A DNA stretch of 64,000 bases from Limnochordales bacterium (GTDB lineage: Bacteria > Bacillota > Limnochordia > Limnochordales > DUMU01), in contig JADBKP010000001.1 in the NCBI GenBank assembly GCA_014896315.1, positions 327,557-391,556 on the forward strand, in the 5' to 3' direction. The notes beneath the pieces were generated by a model. It was not told the DNA's origin. It saw only the letters and a list, made by a program, of their open reading frames with translations, and made no database searches. Made by a program: the position numbers and the translations under genes. This document shows positions 27,368 through 55,799 of the stretch, piece after piece. Position 1 is the first letter of the stretch; every line of letters starts with the position of its first letter.

Positions 27368-29224
27368 TCAAGCCGTCTCCGCCTGTCCCTCGGAATTGGT
27401 ACTACCAGCCGCGTTCAAACGACCCGAGGCCTGGTAGAGCTTCCAGGCCAGGTAACCGCCGGTCAGGTTCTGCACCCGAGCAAACCCATGGCCCTTGAGA
27501 ATCTGCGCGGCAATGTAGCTACGCTGCCCGCCGGCACAGTACACCACCGTGCTCTTGTGGGGATCGAGCTTATCCAGATTCTCACGCAGGGTATCCAAAG
27601 GAATGAGAATTGCCCCCGGGATGTGACCACCCGCGGTCTCCTGCGGATTGCGGACGTCGACCAGCTGGAGTCTGGAGGTGACACCGTCGTCTCCTTGGTC
27701 GGCGTTTGCTCCCAGCATAGACGCCAGTTCGGCGGGGGTGATACCGTCCACGATCTCAAGCTGCCGGTTTTGTGCCGCCATTCCCGCGATCACGATCGGG
27801 TCCTTGGCTGCGCCGAAAGGCGGGGCGTACGCCAGATCCAGATCGGCCAACTCTTCCACCCGCAGCCCACCCATGATAGCGGTGGCTACCACATCGATGC
27901 GCTTGTCGACTCCCTCCGCTCCGACGACCTGAGCACCCAGCAGGCGACCGTCCTGCGGTGACCAGACCAGCTTGATGAACAGGCTTTTCGCACCCGGGTA
28001 GTAGCCAGCATGGTGGCCGCTGACGGTGTAGCCGACGGCCACTGGCAAACCGCAGGCCCGGGCACGTTTCTCGCTCAAGCCGGTGATTCCGGCGGTGATC
28101 GTCCCGGCCCGGACAATGGCCGTCCCCAGGGCGCCCCGGAAACGGAGCCGCCCCGCTTCCGGAGCGAGCTTCTCACGAGCCGCGCCCGCGGCCACCGCCG
28201 CCGCCTGGTCACCGGCCACCCTCCCCTGTTTGTTTGCCGGGCCCGCCAGCGGGAAGAGCGCCGGTTGACCGGTGACCAGATCCGTGCACTCCACCGCGTC
28301 GCCGGCAGCAAAGATCAGGGGATCACTGGTCTGCATACGCTCGTCTACCCGGATGCCGCCCGTAACGCCCAGCTGCAGCCCTGCTTCTCGGGCCAGCTCC
28401 ACGTCGGGGCGCACCCCCAGGCCGACCACGAAGATCTCCGCCTCAAGCCGGCGGCCGGAAGCGAGTAGGAGGGCGGTCGCCGGTTCACCGTCAGCATTCT
28501 CCCCTCCGCTCGGCGCGGGCCCTGCCGCCTTGCTGGGCCCGACAAACTCGCGGGCGCCATCTCCCAGCACAAGTTCTATTCCCTGTTCCCGCAGGCTCAT
28601 GGCAACCAACGCCGCCATCTCCGGGTCAAGCGGTGGCAACACCTGCGGCGCCTGCTCCACCAGCGTCACGTGAAACCCCTGACGGAGCAGCGCTTCCGCC
28701 ACTTCCAACCCGATGAACCCCGCACCTACCACCACCGCGCGCGGTTGGCCGCTGCTCCGTTTACGAGCAGCCTCTACCACCCGCCGCAGCGCGACAGCCT
28801 CCGGCACTGTCCGTAACTGATAGACGTTGGGACGATCAAGCCCGGGAATGGGGGGCCGTACGGGCCGCGAACCGCAAGCGAGCACCAGGGCGCTGTAAGG
28901 CTCGCTGAACTCTTCCCCGCGGGGCAGAACGACACCTCGTACAACCCGTGCCTCCCGGTCGATCGCTGTCACCCGGTGTCGCAGGCGTACCTGGATGCGA
29001 AACCGTCTCCAGAGTTGCTCCGGCGTCTGCACGAGGAGTTGCTGCTCTTCCTTGATCTCACCGCCGACATAGTAGGGCAGGCCGCAGTTGGCGAAGGAGA
29101 CATAGTCACCGGCCTCGAGTATCACGATCTCCGCACTCTCATTGACCCTGCGGGCCCGCACGGCAGCCCCCGCACCGGCGGCCACGCCGCCGACGATGAC
29201 GATCCGATTTGTGACCGCACCCAC
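27368..29224 (-). CDS. CoA-disulfide reductase / NADH:polysulfide reductase with rhodanese domain
   Basis: The protein has 618 residues from GTG 29224 (AGGGAG upstream). Residues 1-330 hold FAD- and NAD(P)-binding Rossmann folds (IVIVGGVAAGAGAA, VVVGAGFIGLEVAEAL) with the single active-site cysteine C47 in SFANCGLPYY. Residues about 330-460 form the dimerisation domain (GTAIVRAGTITAGITG). Residues about 490-600 form a rhodanese domain with its persulfide cysteine in VVYCAGGQRSY. Such CoADR-Rhd enzymes reduce CoA-disulfide, CoA-persulfide or polysulfide with NAD(P)H, giving sulfide. An insert of about 20 residues (KAAGPAPSGGENADG) lies in the NAD domain. It follows osmC by 19 bases in one operon under the CsoR-type/Rex control region. 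Confidence 0.92.
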   Translation of the reverse strand: MGAVTNRIVIVGGVAAGAGAAVRARRVNESAEIVILEAGDYVSFANCGLPYYVGGEIKEEQQLLVQTPEQLWRRFRIQVRLRHRVTAIDREARVVRGVVLPRGEEFSEPYSALVLACGSRPVRPPIPGLDRPNVYQLRTVPEAVALRRVVEAARKRSSGQPRAVVVGAGFIGLEVAEALLRQGFHVTLVEQAPQVLPPLDPEMAALVAMSLREQGIELVLGDGAREFVGPSKAAGPAPSGGENADGEPATALLLASGRRLEAEIFVVGLGVRPDVELAREAGLQLGVTGGIRVDERMQTSDPLIFAAGDAVECTDLVTGQPALFPLAGPANKQGRVAGDQAAAVAAGAAREKLAPEAGRLRFRGALGTAIVRAGTITAGITGLSEKRARACGLPVAVGYTVSGHHAGYYPGAKSLFIKLVWSPQDGRLLGAQVVGAEGVDKRIDVVATAIMGGLRVEELADLDLAYAPPFGAAKDPIVIAGMAAQNRQLEIVDGITPAELASMLGANADQGDDGVTSRLQLVDVRNPQETAGGHIPGAILIPLDTLRENLDKLDPHKSTVVYCAGGQRSYIAAQILKGHGFARVQNLTGGYLAWKLYQASGRLNAAGSTNSEGQAETA

Positions 29225-29243: not shown

Positions 29244-29717
29244 CTACACCTTTTCCCAGCGAATCGCCATCTCAACGCCCGCCGCCTTCATCATGGTGTA
29301 GACCGGGCAGCGGCGCTCGATATCGGCCACAACCGACTGGAAGAGCTCGTCGGAAGCTGCAGTCTTCACCTTAATGGTGCCCTTGACCACGCTGAAGAAC
29401 GGACAGACCCCCTCCACACCTTCGAGCCCGCGCACGTCGAGCGTACCTACCAGATCGAAGTGGGCGTCTTCATAAGTCATGCCCTTCTCCTGCGCAACCA
29501 CTGCCAGCATAACGGAAGCGCAGCCGGCAAGCGCCGCCAGAACATACTCTACCGGGTTTGGACCGGCGTCGCTCCCGCCGAGCATGGCCGGCTCATCGAT
29601 GACGATCGGATCAAAGGAACGCACCCAAACGTTGGTCCGTACCCCACCGGCCCAATCACCACGGACACGTACGGAAAAGAGCTTAGGCTCTCCCTGCGAC
29701 TCTACTGAAATAGCCAT
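29244..29717 (-). CDS. OsmC family peroxiredoxin-like protein
   Basis: The protein has 157 residues, with GGAGGAT before ATG 29717. The OsmC/Ohr pair of reactive cysteines is present: C66 in AALAGCASVM and C137 in ERRCPVYTM, together with the domain's GPNPVEYVLAA. The family reduces organic hydroperoxides or handles persulfides. It is the first gene of the unit osmC-CoADR, and its promoter region carries both a CsoR-type half-operator and a Rex-like box. With the polysulfide reductase downstream, a role in sulfur or organic-peroxide detoxification is likely. Confidence 0.92.
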   Translation of the reverse strand: MAISVESQGEPKLFSVRVRGDWAGGVRTNVWVRSFDPIVIDEPAMLGGSDAGPNPVEYVLAALAGCASVMLAVVAQEKGMTYEDAHFDLVGTLDVRGLEGVEGVCPFFSVVKGTIKVKTAASDELFQSVVADIERRCPVYTMMKAAGVEMAIRWEKV

Positions 29718-29759: not shown

Positions 29760-29777
29760 TTGTGAACACCTTCACCG
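29760..29777. promoter_or_regulatory. Rex-like operator
   Basis: TTGTGAACACCTTCACCG matches the Rex box TTGTGAA-N4-TTCACAA at 12 of 14 positions. It lies just downstream of the -10 element of the osmC promoter, where a bound repressor would block transcription. A rex gene is present at 55024-55668. Confidence 0.55.
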
Positions 29778-29779
29778 AC

Positions 29780-29809
29780 ATTCTGTTGCCGGGGCCGCGT
29801 CGGTGTCAA
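29780..29809 (-). promoter_or_regulatory. Promoter of the osmC-CoADR operon
   Basis: On the minus strand, TTGACA (29804-29809) and CAGAAT (29780-29785) are 18 bases apart. The GGGTA-rich operator arm directly abuts the -35 element. Confidence 0.6.
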
Positions 29810-29810
29810 G

Positions 29811-29829
29811 GGGTACGGGTATGGGTATA
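29811..29829. promoter_or_regulatory. CsoR-type operator arm, osmC side
   Basis: GGGTACGGGTATGGGTATA holds three GGGTA half-sites. Its reverse complement matches the operator at 29867-29882 at 15 of 16 positions, so the two sites face each other across the divergent promoter region. Confidence 0.5.
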
Positions 29830-29843
29830 TTCGGCGTCCCCTC

Positions 29844-29872
29844 TTGACGTACTGCCGGCAGATCTGTATACC
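29844..29872 (+). promoter_or_regulatory. Promoter of the glutaredoxin-thioredoxin reductase operon
   Basis: TTGACG (29844-29849) and TATACC (29867-29872) are 17 bases apart. The -10 element is the first part of the CsoR-type operator, so repressor and RNA polymerase would compete. Confidence 0.65.
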
Positions 29873-29890
29873 TATACCCGTAGGGGTAAT
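29867..29890. promoter_or_regulatory. CsoR/CstR-type operator, glutaredoxin side
   Basis: ATACCCGTAGGGGTAAT (29874-29890) is a near-perfect palindrome of the ATACCC-N-GGGTAT type bound by CsoR-family repressors, preceded by another TATACC. The same motif precedes the window's own CsoR-family gene (36231-36246). Confidence 0.65.
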
Positions 29891-29947: not shown

Positions 29948-30187
29948 GTGAAACCAGCTGTGACAGTGTACAGCACGCCCACTTGTCCTTACTGCAACGC
30001 GGCCAAGCGCTACTTGAAAGAGCGAGGGGTACCCTTCCGCGACGTTGACGTATCGCGGGACCAGCGGGCAGCCATGGAGATGATACGCAAGTCCGGCCAG
30101 ATGGGAGTTCCGGTGCTGGACATCGGCGGGCGTATCGTCGTCGGTTTCGACCGCAACAAGATCAACGCATTGCTCGGCTTCCACTAA
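29948..30187 (+). CDS. Glutaredoxin-like (NrdH/YruB type) thiol-disulfide protein
   Basis: The protein has 79 residues with GTG start 29948 and GGAGGT ten bases upstream; an ATG at 29940 is in another frame. It has the compact thioredoxin fold with active site C13-P-Y-C16 near the N-terminus and the cis-proline segment GVPVLDIGGRIVVGFD. Such proteins pass electrons from a thioredoxin or glutaredoxin reductase to disulfide substrates. It is the first gene of the unit grx, groES-like, PDO and thioredoxin reductase-like, so the reductase at 31329 is its probable electron donor. Confidence 0.93.
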   Translation: MKPAVTVYSTPTCPYCNAAKRYLKERGVPFRDVDVSRDQRAAMEMIRKSGQMGVPVLDIGGRIVVGFDRNKINALLGFH

Positions 30188-30234
30188 ACGGCATCGCCGG
30201 GCATGAACCCGCAAACTTGGAAGGAGAGATCTGC

Positions 30235-30543
30235 ATGCATGTCAAGCCGCTGGAAGACAGGGTGTTGCTCAAGCCGGTCGAGTTACGGGAAGAACGCACC
30301 CGCGGCGGCCTCTATCTGCCGGAGACGTCGCAGGAAGGACCGGTAGAGGCCGAAGTGGTCGCCGTGGGGCAGGATGAGAGTATCCCCGTCAAAGTTGGTG
30401 ACCACGTCCTGATCGCCAAGTTTGCCGGTACCGAAGTCCGTGTGAACGGAGTGCAGATGCTCTTGGTCAGCAAGAGCGATCTTTTGGCCATCGTGGAACC
30501 GGAACAGACCACCGCCGGTTCACCAGTACACCAACCGGCGTGA
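30235..30543 (+). CDS. GroES-like co-chaperonin (Cpn10)
   Basis: The protein has 102 residues from ATG 30235 (AAGGAG upstream). It follows the GroES plan: MHVKPLEDRVLLKPVE, the mobile loop REERTRGGLYLPETSQEGP, and VGDHVLIAKFAGTEVRVNG with LLVSKSDLLAIVE. The last dozen residues (TTAGSPVHQPA) are an added tail. GroES normally caps GroEL and is encoded next to groEL. Here no groEL is nearby, and the gene sits inside a thiol-redox operon, suggesting a second copy for stress-specific folding or a different partner. The family assignment is firm; the role is inferred. Confidence 0.9.
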   Translation: MHVKPLEDRVLLKPVELREERTRGGLYLPETSQEGPVEAEVVAVGQDESIPVKVGDHVLIAKFAGTEVRVNGVQMLLVSKSDLLAIVEPEQTTAGSPVHQPA

Positions 30544-30558
30544 AGGAGGTTTACCCCA

Positions 30559-31251
30559 ATGGCACTGCTTAGCGAAAAGGATCGTCAATTTGTGCGTGAT
30601 TTCTTCGCCAAAGAGATGGAAGGGCCGGTGGAGATGATTCTCTTTACCGCCAGTGAGGCGGAGATGGCCCGAGCCGAAGCGGAAAACCCCTATCTACCGC
30701 AGATGCAGGAGCTGATGGAGGAGTTAACCGAACTCTCTCCCAAGCTCTCTCTCCGCCTCGCCCGTACCGATACCGATCCAGAGGTTTTTACCCAGTACGG
30801 CGTGCCGCTGTCCGCTTACCCGGTTCTGGCCCTGCTGGGTGAGGGCGGAAAGGATTACGGAATCCGGTTCTATGGAATTCCGGCCGGATACGAGTTCCGC
30901 ACGCTGATGGACGATATCGTCGACGTTTCCCGGGGCCGGTCCCGCCTGAAGCCGGAGACCATCCGGCAGCTGGCGGAGTTGAAGACCGACCTGCATTTCC
31001 AGGTCTTTGTCACCCCGACCTGCCCGTACTGCCCCAGGGTAGTCCGCCTGGCCCACCAGTTTGCACTGGAGAGCCCGCGCGTGCGGGCGGACATGATCGA
31101 AGCTACTGAGTTCAGTGAACTGGCCAACCGCTTCAACGTTTACGGCGTGCCCAAGACCGTCATCAACGACGGAATTCAGGAAATCGAGGGCGCTGTCCCG
31201 GAGGATATGTTCCTCGAGGCGGCTCTGGCGGCCGCCGCGGCCAGCAGCTGA
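30559..31251 (+). CDS. Protein disulfide oxidoreductase (two thioredoxin-like units, N-terminal CxxC lost)
   Basis: The 230-residue protein has two tandem thioredoxin folds, as in archaeal/thermophile PDO (glutaredoxin-like domain proteins). The C-terminal unit has an intact active site C155-P-Y-C158 (FVTPTCPYCPRVVRLAHQ) and the cis-proline YGVPKTVIND. In the N-terminal unit, the position that is CQYC in the paralogue at 36586 reads NPYL, so this half is redox-inactive but keeps the fold (YGIPAGYEFRTLMDDIVDVSRG). It catalyses disulfide exchange in the cytoplasm. It lies 15 bases after the groES-like gene. Confidence 0.92.
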   Translation: MALLSEKDRQFVRDFFAKEMEGPVEMILFTASEAEMARAEAENPYLPQMQELMEELTELSPKLSLRLARTDTDPEVFTQYGVPLSAYPVLALLGEGGKDYGIRFYGIPAGYEFRTLMDDIVDVSRGRSRLKPETIRQLAELKTDLHFQVFVTPTCPYCPRVVRLAHQFALESPRVRADMIEATEFSELANRFNVYGVPKTVINDGIQEIEGAVPEDMFLEAALAAAAASS

Positions 31252-31328
31252 CAGCCACTGACAGCCAGCATTGCCCTGCGGCAGCGGGAGTAGCCCGGGA
31301 GTTCACAGGAGGAAGGGTAGGGCTCCCT

Positions 31329-32369
31329 ATGGACAACAAGGCAACTATAGCTTCACTAACCGTGAATTTCGGTGACGGTACCACTGACAACGGCAGCAGC
31401 AGTGGCGACGACAGTTCCCGCCAGCATTACGACGTGGCCATCATAGGAGGCGGTCCGGCCGGCTTGAGCGCCGCCCTTTACACCGCCCGTGCGGGATTGC
31501 GGACGGTCATCCTCGACAAGTCGCCTTATGCGGGGGCTTTGGGTCTGACGGACAAAATAGAGAATTACCCCGGCGTCCCCGGGCCGATCAGCGGGATAGA
31601 GTTACTGCGCATCTTCCGGGAGCAGGCTCTCTCCTTCGGGGCGGTGTACCTGCAGGAAACCGTACTAAGTGTCGACCCGACCTCAGATCCCAAGGAAGTG
31701 ATCACTACCCGGCAGACCTTGTACGCCGACCGGCTGATCGTCGCGAGCGGCGCCATGGGCCGCAAAGCCAGTCTTCCCGGGGAGGAACGGCTGCTTGGCC
31801 GAGGCGTCAGCTACTGTGCCACCTGTGACGGTGCCTTCTTCACCGATCAACCGGTTGCTGTGGTCGGTGACACCGAGGAGGCGGTAGAGGAAGCGCTCTT
31901 TCTCACCCGCTTCGCGCGGCCAGTGCACTTCCTGGCCAGGGGGAGTACCTTGCGGGCTCCCGGCGAACTGGTGGCGGAATTGAAGTCTCATCCCCGGGTG
32001 GTCTGGCGGGAGAAGGTGCGCATTCTCGAAATAGTCGGGGACAAACGGGTGGAAGGGGTCCGCATCGCTTCTCCCGCTTCCCGGGGGCAGGAGGAATTCC
32101 TGCCGGTCAAAGGCGTCTTCATATATCTGCAGGGCAATCGCCCCATACTGGACTTCTTCCAGGGCACTGCGCTCCCGGCCCTCACCGCCGACGGTTGTGT
32201 CCGGGTGAACGAGGAGTACGAGACTTCGCTGCCCGGCGTCTTCGCCGTCGGTGATCTGACTTGCAAGAAAGTGCGGCAGGCCGTCCTGGCCGCAGCCGAC
32301 GGAGTCCTGGCTGCCCTGGCGGTCGAGAGGCAGCTGCGGGGACGGGCAAAGATCCGTTCCATGTGGTAA
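31329..32369 (+). CDS. Thioredoxin reductase-like flavoprotein lacking NADPH motifs
   Basis: The protein has 346 residues; AGGAGGA lies 13 bases before ATG 31329, and the first 30 residues are a non-conserved extension. The FAD domain (VAIIGGGPAGLSAALYTARAG) and C-terminal VFAVGDLTCKKVRQAVLAAADG are normal, and the redox-active pair is C163-ATC-C166. In the pyridine-nucleotide domain, the usual GGGDSA reads GDTEEA (residues 180-185), and HRRxxxR reads LARGSTLR (202-209). Loss of both motifs is the hallmark of ferredoxin- or diflavin-linked reductases, so the electron donor is probably not NADPH. The likely substrates are the glutaredoxin and PDO encoded upstream. It is the last gene of the operon. 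Confidence 0.9.
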   Translation: MDNKATIASLTVNFGDGTTDNGSSSGDDSSRQHYDVAIIGGGPAGLSAALYTARAGLRTVILDKSPYAGALGLTDKIENYPGVPGPISGIELLRIFREQALSFGAVYLQETVLSVDPTSDPKEVITTRQTLYADRLIVASGAMGRKASLPGEERLLGRGVSYCATCDGAFFTDQPVAVVGDTEEAVEEALFLTRFARPVHFLARGSTLRAPGELVAELKSHPRVVWREKVRILEIVGDKRVEGVRIASPASRGQEEFLPVKGVFIYLQGNRPILDFFQGTALPALTADGCVRVNEEYETSLPGVFAVGDLTCKKVRQAVLAAADGVLAALAVERQLRGRAKIRSMW

Positions 32370-36218: not shown

Positions 36219-36258
36219 GTCGGGCGGCCGATACCCTCCGGGGTATTTGCCGCCCGAC
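36219..36258. promoter_or_regulatory. Large palindromic CsoR-type operator
   Basis: ATACCC-TCCG-GGGTAT (36231-36246) is a perfect CsoR-type site. It is embedded in a longer inverted repeat: GTCGGGCGGC (36219-36228) with GCCGCCCGAC (36249-36258). More GGGTAT half-sites flank it at 36202-36207 and 36260-36265. The palindrome could also fold in RNA. It indicates autoregulation of the downstream repressor gene. Confidence 0.7.
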
Positions 36259-36309
36259 CGGGTATTTGTTTACACGAAGCCGAGAATCCTCGGAAGGAAG
36301 AGGTTGCCG

Positions 36310-36570
36310 ATGACGAGCAGCCGGCTCGAGGTGGAACGCCTTATTGACCGGATGAAAAGGGTGGAGGGCCAGGCGCGCGGCGTGCAGCGAATGCTGCAGG
36401 AGGGCAGACCTTGTGAAGAGATCGTCACCCAGCTGGTTGCGATGCGGGAGGCCATTGCGCGCGTGGCAATGCAACTGATCGGTGGACACCTAGAGCAGTG
36501 CCTCGCGGAGAACATGGACATGGACGAAGCGCTCAAGAAGGCTACCGATCTTATGATCCGCCTGAGCTGA
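36310..36570 (+). CDS. CsoR-family (DUF156) metal- or persulfide-sensing repressor
   Basis: ATG 36310 starts an 86-residue all-helical protein with the CsoR/DUF156 sequence: RLEVERLIDRMKRVEGQARGVQRMLQEGRPCEEIVTQLVAMREAIARVAMQLIGGHLEQCL. The Cu(I)-ligand triad of CsoR is present as C35, H60 and C64; persulfide-sensing CstR uses two cysteines at equivalent sites. It binds DNA as a tetramer and releases it on Cu(I) or persulfide binding. The gene lies behind a perfect CsoR-type operator, and the same motif controls the divergent thiol operons at 29.8 kb. No copper transporter is in the window, so sulfur species may be the signal (inference). Confidence 0.93.
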   Translation: MTSSRLEVERLIDRMKRVEGQARGVQRMLQEGRPCEEIVTQLVAMREAIARVAMQLIGGHLEQCLAENMDMDEALKKATDLMIRLS

Positions 36571-55023: not shown

Positions 55024-55668
55024 TCACGGTTGAAGGTAGAAGGCCAGGCATTGCAGTTCGGCGCTGAGATCGGCCGTAACTACATGAACGTCCTCCGGCA
55101 CCTTCAATTTCATTGGGGCGAAGTTGAGAATTCCCTTGACACCGGCGCCAACCAGCTGGTCGGCCACCCCCTGGGCGGCCTCAGCAGGTACGGCTATAAT
55201 CGCCAGCTTGATGTTTAGACGCTCCACCAGTCCTGGAAGCTCTGCCACCGGTAAGACGGGAACCCCCTCCACCAACACTCCTATTTTGCGCGGGTCGGAA
55301 TCAAACATGGCGACGATGTGCAGATGAAAGTCGGGCTCGTTCAAGTAACGCCGGCGATGGTAGCGGGCAAGGGCCACCCCTAAATTTCCCATCCCCACAA
55401 GCGCAATCCGCACTTCTCTGTCGAGATGGAGTATGCGGCGCAGCTCATTTCGCAGGTAATGAACGTCGTAACCGACCCCCTGCTTGCCGAATTCGCCAAA
55501 CCAGGCGAGATCCTTGCGCACCAGCGCGGGCGTCACCCCCGCCCGCTCACCCAATTCCTGCGAGGAAAGGAGTTTGATGCCCCGGGTCTGCGCCACATCG
55601 TCCAGAACCCGCAGGTACAGTGGTAGCCGGCGAACCACGGCTTCACTTATCTTTATGGGCCGCGGCAT
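55024..55668 (-). CDS. rex: Redox-sensing transcriptional repressor Rex
   Basis: The 214-residue protein has an N-terminal winged helix (residues 1-80: ISEAVVRRLPLYLRVLDDV, TPALVRKDLAWFGEFGKQGVGYDV) and an NAD(H)-binding Rossmann fold (RIALVGMGNLGVALARY), ending with the helix that swaps between monomers (AELQCLAFYL). Rex senses the NADH/NAD+ ratio and represses fermentation, respiration and redox genes. A Rex-like box is present in this window at 29760-29777. GGAGGGT precedes ATG 55668, and the gene is divergent from rlmH. Confidence 0.97.
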   Translation of the reverse strand: MPRPIKISEAVVRRLPLYLRVLDDVAQTRGIKLLSSQELGERAGVTPALVRKDLAWFGEFGKQGVGYDVHYLRNELRRILHLDREVRIALVGMGNLGVALARYHRRRYLNEPDFHLHIVAMFDSDPRKIGVLVEGVPVLPVAELPGLVERLNIKLAIIAVPAEAAQGVADQLVGAGVKGILNFAPMKLKVPEDVHVVTADLSAELQCLAFYLQP

Positions 55669-55799
55669 GCTTTACCCTCCCGGTTAAAATAGAAACGAGA
55701 GTCGCCGCTTTAACTTTCTGCACCGCAACCGGTTCCCCTCTCCCGTTTGTTACCTCGGACACAATCCCCCGCTCAGGACATCGGAAGGAGGTCGCGACA

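Follow-up and report, generated by a model that had tools for sequence, protein, structure and literature searches.

The locus considered here raises the question of whether the palindrome TTGTGAACACCTTCACCG, located at positions 29760–29777 of the window (the whole 64-kb stretch of DNA that was analysed, G000:C1:327557-391556, with a G+C content of 62%, from a genome of 2.59 Mb in 20 contigs), serves as an operator for Rex and brings a presumed osmC-CoADR operon under its control. The original prediction held that the site matches the Rex consensus at 12 of 14 positions, lies over the expected transcription start, and would couple the reductase to the NADH/NAD+ ratio in addition to CsoR-type control. 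The comparisons described below, made on sequence, favor TTGTGAACACCTTCACCG as a moderate-affinity Rex operator controlling osmC-CoADR, a reading to which we give a probability of about 0.6.

Both the sequence and the coordinates of the predicted site proved exact: TTGTGAACACCTTCACCG is a Rex-type palindrome that agrees at 12 of 14 positions with TTGTGAAN4TTCACAA, described as the overall Rex consensus (PMC6391272). The two mismatches fall in the right half-site, where the outer AA is replaced by CG, and the GTGAA/TTCAC arms are intact. The GTGA and TCAC cores stand 6 nt apart, as in a Rex operator, and the spacer of the palindrome, CACC, is G+C-rich. Within the 64-kb window, TTGTGAACACCTTCACCG is the only match with up to two mismatches, against an expectation of 0.08; at least one such match turned up in 7 of 100 shuffled versions of the window. 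The 12-base core TTGTGAAN4TTCAC occurs without any mismatch at two places in the genome, the osmC-CoADR promoter and the pfl/adhE intergenic region, the expectation for random sequence with the dinucleotide content of the window being 0.125.

The position of the palindrome relative to the genes and to the predicted promoter is as follows:

29780–29809, minus strand: predicted sigma-70-type promoter of osmC-CoADR (consensus match only, 10 of 12 positions)
29244–29717, minus strand: OsmC-family protein, 157 aa, first gene of the presumed operon (PF02566)
27368–29224, minus strand: CoADR-like flavoprotein with a C-terminal rhodanese domain, 618 aa (PF07992, PF02852, PF00581)

The name CoADR/CoAPR (CoA-disulfide/persulfide reductase) for the product of the last gene follows from what we take to be the domain layout of this family. 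The promoter consists of TTGACA at 29809–29804, a spacer of 18 nt, and CAGAAT at 29785–29780 on the minus strand, and this spacing would place the start of transcription near 29773, inside TTGTGAACACCTTCACCG, so that the site would extend from about −4 to +14; 42 nt separate it from the ATG of osmC at 29717. The expectation that the site lies over the transcription start was thus borne out for the predicted start.

To score the site against presumable operators of the lineage, a matrix was trained on 12 sites preceding genes taken as Rex targets, with TTGTGAACACCTTCACCG excluded. The training left out L050, which is identical to L049, as well as L013, L014, L017–L022, L048, L053, L054, L059, L060, and L061, all of them situated within coding ORFs or upstream of genes not counted as classic targets. 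The score of TTGTGAACACCTTCACCG is 18.9 bits, within the range of 14.7–28.1 bits obtained for the training sites when each was left out in turn, and no other position in the window exceeds 11.1 bits; the matrix is only partly independent of the consensus because the training sites were found with it.

The meaning of such a match depends on what the motif does elsewhere in the lineage. At up to two mismatches, the motif is matched 11 times in this genome (G000) and its reversed control 2 times. Summed over all 14 genomes of the order, with this one counted in, the figures are 89 vs 17; G008 is the one genome in which the reversed control exceeds the motif, 7 to 3. The second copy of the exact core lies between a PFL-like and an aldehyde-dehydrogenase gene (assigned by Pfam), read as pfl and adhE. 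The motif is also found upstream of rnfC in G000 (L016) and G002 (L047), both checked with Pfam; upstream of nuoA at L055–L058, of which L055, L056, and L057 were run against Pfam; and upstream of a POR-type gene at L049–L051, with Pfam run on L050; at L052, the start of the gene is ambiguous. The other sites of the order examined at up to two mismatches lie inside coding ORFs or before other genes. Since the motif precedes the adhE/pfl, rnfC, nuoA, and por genes, TTGTGAAN4TTCACAA represents the order's type of Rex operator. In S. aureus, adhE, pflB, and ldh1 have been described as Rex targets (PMC2883068).

The adhE site covers about +12 to +29 from its own predicted start, and since this site and TTGTGAACACCTTCACCG lie over or after the predicted starts, both fit repression. 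No sigma-70-type promoter was found in a scan near the rnfC site. The pfl/adhE intergenic region (G000:C1:117794-117960, L012/L025) carries two Rex-type palindromes, with one and three mismatches. A different type of operator, TTGTTAAN4TTAACAA, which we take to be the clostridial one, gave 1 match in the genome at up to two mismatches vs 2 for the reversed control; being not above control, it reveals by that route no second operator type for the second Rex of this genome.

By ORF length and our own reading, 5 of the 11 genomic matches are intergenic and 6 lie in apparent coding ORFs. The intergenic ones are TTGTGAACACCTTCACCG itself, three that precede adhE, rnfC, and codY, and one at a long distance upstream of a radical-SAM gene. 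The L014 site is explained by coding, because it sits in the frame of a radical-SAM gene, where it reads YRELLHD. All three genomes of the family that were compared (G000, G001, and G002) share a Rex-type site, ATGTGAAC..ACTCACAA; in G000 and G002, it lies about 600–700 nt upstream of a radical-SAM gene resembling the hydrogenase maturase HydE. Its positions are:

G000:C1:159286-159303 (L013)
G001:C37:9531
G002:C4:16425 (in L060)

The palindrome before codY, TTGTCAACGAATTCACAG, is also of the Rex type (G000:C12:92417-92434, L020); it is located 120 nt upstream of the gene, scores 18.1 bits, and either is a chance match or may connect redox control with nutrient control.

A regulator that could recognize the site is encoded in the same window, as the original prediction stated:

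55024–55668, minus strand: Rex1, 214 aa (PF06971, PF02629; similarity to Rex structures, 3ikv among them, at E about 1e-43)

The rex1 gene lies about 25 kb from TTGTGAACACCTTCACCG, and a second rex gene (rex2) is situated elsewhere in the genome, at 1465–2160 of L004; both proteins resemble solved Rex structures. A Rex-type domain was matched above the cut-off in all 14 genomes of the order. The Rex2-type paralogue occurs in G000 (G000:C2:55488-55631, L004), G001 (L142), and G002 (L140), in each case besides the Rex1 type; among the 23 loci of the order, 3 of 18 Rex segments are of the Rex2 type, and it was seen only in these three genomes. In Thermotoga maritima Rex, an Arg-Lys pair reads G5, G7, and A8 of the operator, and Arg60 of the wing touches its outer T (PMC8836258). 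Both Rex1 and Rex2 retain this Arg-Lys pair in their recognition helix. The wings read GKQGVGY in Rex1 vs GTRGVGY in Rex2, with Gln in Rex1 at the position of T. maritima Arg60, and the outer T pair contacted by Arg60 in T. maritima is gone from one half-site of TTGTGAACACCTTCACCG.

For S. aureus Rex, Kd values of 5.7e-8 M for adhE (no mismatch) and 2.7e-7 M for nirR (three mismatches) have been reported, imperfect sites being bound with lower affinity and an A/T-rich spacer being optimal (PMC2883068). With its CACC spacer and lost outer pair, TTGTGAACACCTTCACCG is therefore predicted to bind Rex weakly to moderately. The second-best matrix match in the window is a weak palindrome, TTGTTACCTCGGACACAA, at 55747–55764, 78 nt from the rex start (11.1 bits, four mismatches). 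Autoregulation of rex through TTGTTACCTCGGACACAA is possible but is not claimed here, because no counterpart at up to four mismatches was seen around any of the rex loci of G001 and G002, four in all.

In the comparison with related genomes proposed together with the original prediction, distant CoADR homologues showed no conservation of the site, and the nearest relatives gave no match to the genes by which it could be judged. The nearest relatives compared were one genome of the same genus (G001) and one of the same family (G002), both drafts; neither gave a match to OsmC at E up to 1e-15 or to CoADR at E up to 1e-60. When the region was aligned with G001 and G002, the grx promoter was kept and the osmC side was without clear similarity. 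Counting this genome, CoADR matches were found in 7 of 14 genomes of the order, 10 of 72 of the class, and 54 of 398 of the phylum. In total, 45 CoADR loci were scanned (the own one, 6 of the order, 9 of the class, and 29 of the phylum, 26 further matches of the phylum being outside the scan), over 1.5 kb upstream except for 228 nt at L089, 1004 nt at L103, and 363 nt at L106. At up to two mismatches, a site was present upstream of CoADR at the own locus only and at 0 of the 44 others; three-mismatch matches occur upstream at L075, L080, L081, L083, L094, and L105, and the two-mismatch match at L073 lies inside its gene. The closest CoADR homologue found (L079, 60%) has a CsoR-like dyad before the gene, as judged by eye, and no Rex site.

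At E up to 1e-15, OsmC homologues were found in 13 of 80 relatives, the own genome included, and the 12 other loci had no site at up to two mismatches, with three-mismatch matches at L031, L037, and L038. A scan of genome contigs added 8 Bacillus-type OsmC loci (36–45% identity); in the 1.5 kb upstream of these, no site at up to two mismatches was present, and one match with three mismatches was seen (L063). On these comparisons, the osmC-CoADR operon and its site were either gained locally or preserved only locally. A Rex operator at osmC-CoADR would be a plausible and, as it seems, local extension of a familiar regulatory circuit.

The promoter region between osmC and the divergent operon also carries elements of another kind, with TACCCN4GGGTA being taken here as the CsoR-type operator:

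29875–29888, plus strand: perfect TACCCN4GGGTA dyad TACCCGTAGGGGTA, a CsoR-type operator located at the divergent grx promoter
36304–36570, plus strand: CsoR-family repressor gene (PF02583), with a perfect TACCCN4GGGTA dyad upstream at 36232–36245
29814–29829, no strand assigned: left half of the first CsoR dyad region, repeated in inverted orientation and adjoining the −35 element of osmC
29948–30187, plus strand: glutaredoxin, first gene of the divergent operon (PF00462)
30235–30543, plus strand: Cpn10/GroES-like protein (PF00166)
30559–31251, plus strand: glutaredoxin-like protein with a C-terminal thioredoxin domain (PF13192, PF00462)
31329–32369, plus strand: thioredoxin-reductase-like flavoprotein (PF07992; the name is our own reading)

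At up to one mismatch, the window contains 4 matches to TACCCN4GGGTA vs 1.34 expected, and 6 of 100 shuffles reach 4. Dyads lie near the CsoR-family gene and near presumed targets. The inverted arms at 29814–29829 and 29867–29882, 16 nt long and 94% complementary, are CsoR-type half-operators, one beside each of the two divergent promoters (osmC and grx). The half-operator beside the −35 element suggests that the CsoR-family protein may also control the osmC side. In G001 and G002, the element of the grx promoter has one mismatch each to TACCCN4GGGTA, and perfect dyads are found there before second copies of the thioredoxin-domain gene (L125 and L122). The Cpn10/GroES-like gene is part of a thiol-redox operon (29948–32369) whose promoter bears a CsoR-type element, and the order glutaredoxin-Cpn10-thioredoxin-domain protein is kept in G001 and G002 (L109 and L110), as judged by eye, with other genes beside.

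Taken as a mechanism, Rex control of osmC-CoADR would operate as follows. At low NADH, NAD+-bound Rex would sit over the osmC-CoADR start and block transcription; when NADH rises, Rex would release the operator, and the reductase would be produced. The presumed product, an NAD(P)H-consuming persulfide/polysulfide (CoA-disulfide) reductase, would then serve as an electron outlet. Expression would also require the neighboring CsoR-type repressor to be off, so that the promoter would respond to reductant through Rex as well as to persulfide or metal through the CsoR-family protein. The predicted coupling to the NADH/NAD+ ratio on top of CsoR control therefore stands in part: the motif type, the score, and the repressor-like position speak for it, while the 44 distant CoADR loci, none of which shares the site, speak against it. 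The fuller version, in which Rex over the start and a CsoR-family persulfide/metal sensor beside the −35 element jointly gate the reductase, is advanced only tentatively. With such two-input gating, the reductase would be made only when excess reductant and the sulfur signal are both present, and this species would have acquired the wiring along with the osmC-CoADR operon.

Three other explanations of the palindrome have to be weighed. The GTGAA/TTCAC arms could have arisen accidentally in intergenic DNA, with nothing binding to them. A genome should contain about 1.12 random matches scoring 18.9 bits or more, and the match at L022, inside a coding ORF, scores even higher than TTGTGAACACCTTCACCG (19.4 vs 18.9 bits), so that sequence alone is insufficient to decide; the absence of an upstream counterpart within two mismatches at the 44 other CoADR loci points the same way. 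It is the position and the intergenic placement of TTGTGAACACCTTCACCG that add weight to a Rex operator. Intergenic DNA normally makes up a small share of a bacterial genome, and few such matches should therefore fall there by accident, whereas TTGTGAACACCTTCACCG falls within a core promoter; moreover, chance does not readily provide two copies of a core expected 0.125 times, the other one being between pfl- and adhE-like genes. We consider an accidental palindrome unlikely on balance. A Crp/Fnr-family regulator is an even less probable owner of the site. TTGTGAACACCTTCACCG can be read as TGTGA-N6-TCACC, which agrees with the Crp consensus at 9 of 10 positions, i.e., has one mismatch to TGTGAN6TCACA, and the genome encodes one strong protein of this family (L005, E 8e-21) besides a weak partial match above the cut-off (L006). 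Among solved structures, L005 is nearest to Crp/Fnr-family regulators such as 3d0s, presumably an actinobacterial member. The Crp/Fnr-type regulator ArcR of S. aureus has been studied alongside Rex at such promoters (PMC2883068). However, chance alone should yield 0.94 matches of that level to TGTGAN6TCACA per window. Rex is the better fit for the inner AA/TT and for the outer TT of one half-site, and the motif also stands before typical Rex targets. The position over the start suits a repressor and not a Crp activator, and the recognition helix of L005, SQETLSR, is a pattern that we associate with Fnr-type sites.

Finally, the CsoR-family repressor alone might control the osmC-CoADR promoter, the palindrome being irrelevant. 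The dyad at 29875, the one upstream of csoR, the preservation of the element with one mismatch in the grx promoters of G001 and G002, and the arrangement at L079, with a CsoR-like dyad and without a Rex site, would all agree with this, as would the control of CoA persulfide reductase by CstR described for E. faecalis (PMC9405070). Such an explanation leaves the rare motif over the start unaccounted for, the osmC side has only a half-operator, and control by CsoR is compatible with control by Rex; it is regarded as very improbable. A Rex operator at the osmC-CoADR start thus remains the preferred reading.

Known systems provide partial precedents. In Caldicellulosiruptor, Rex control has been predicted for a TusA/CoA-disulfide reductase operon, an arrangement described as conserved in most species of the genus (PMC8579813). 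As there, a predicted Rex site precedes an operon encoding a CoA-disulfide reductase; unlike there, where TusA and other genes are described, the partner is OsmC, the site is known from one genome, and a CsoR-type operator lies beside it. With the S. aureus sites (TTGTGAAW4TTCACAA; PMC2883068), the candidate site shares the 18-bp palindrome, the location in or near the core promoter, the regulator family, and overlapping kinds of companion targets, but it differs from those described in two half-site mismatches, a G+C-rich spacer, and a persulfide-reductase-like target. In E. faecalis, CstR controls coaP, which encodes a CoA persulfide reductase, and the level of the Rex protein also rises after sulfide (PMC9405070). 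A CsoR/CstR-family repressor is likewise tied here to a CoADR-rhodanese-type protein; in contrast to coaP, for which the accessible text of that report mentions no Rex operator, the full CsoR dyad lies here on the glutaredoxin side. Joint control of one CoADR promoter by Rex and CsoR/CstR was not found stated in the titles and abstract beginnings of the open-access papers surveyed.

As a link between Rex and CoADR has already been predicted in Caldicellulosiruptor (PMC8579813), the surprise is limited. If true, Rex control of osmC-CoADR would bring a sulfane-sulfur reductase that is paired with OsmC into the Rex regulon, would offer a testable two-signal promoter, and would suggest that persulfide/polysulfide reduction may serve as an outlet for NADH, beyond detoxification only.
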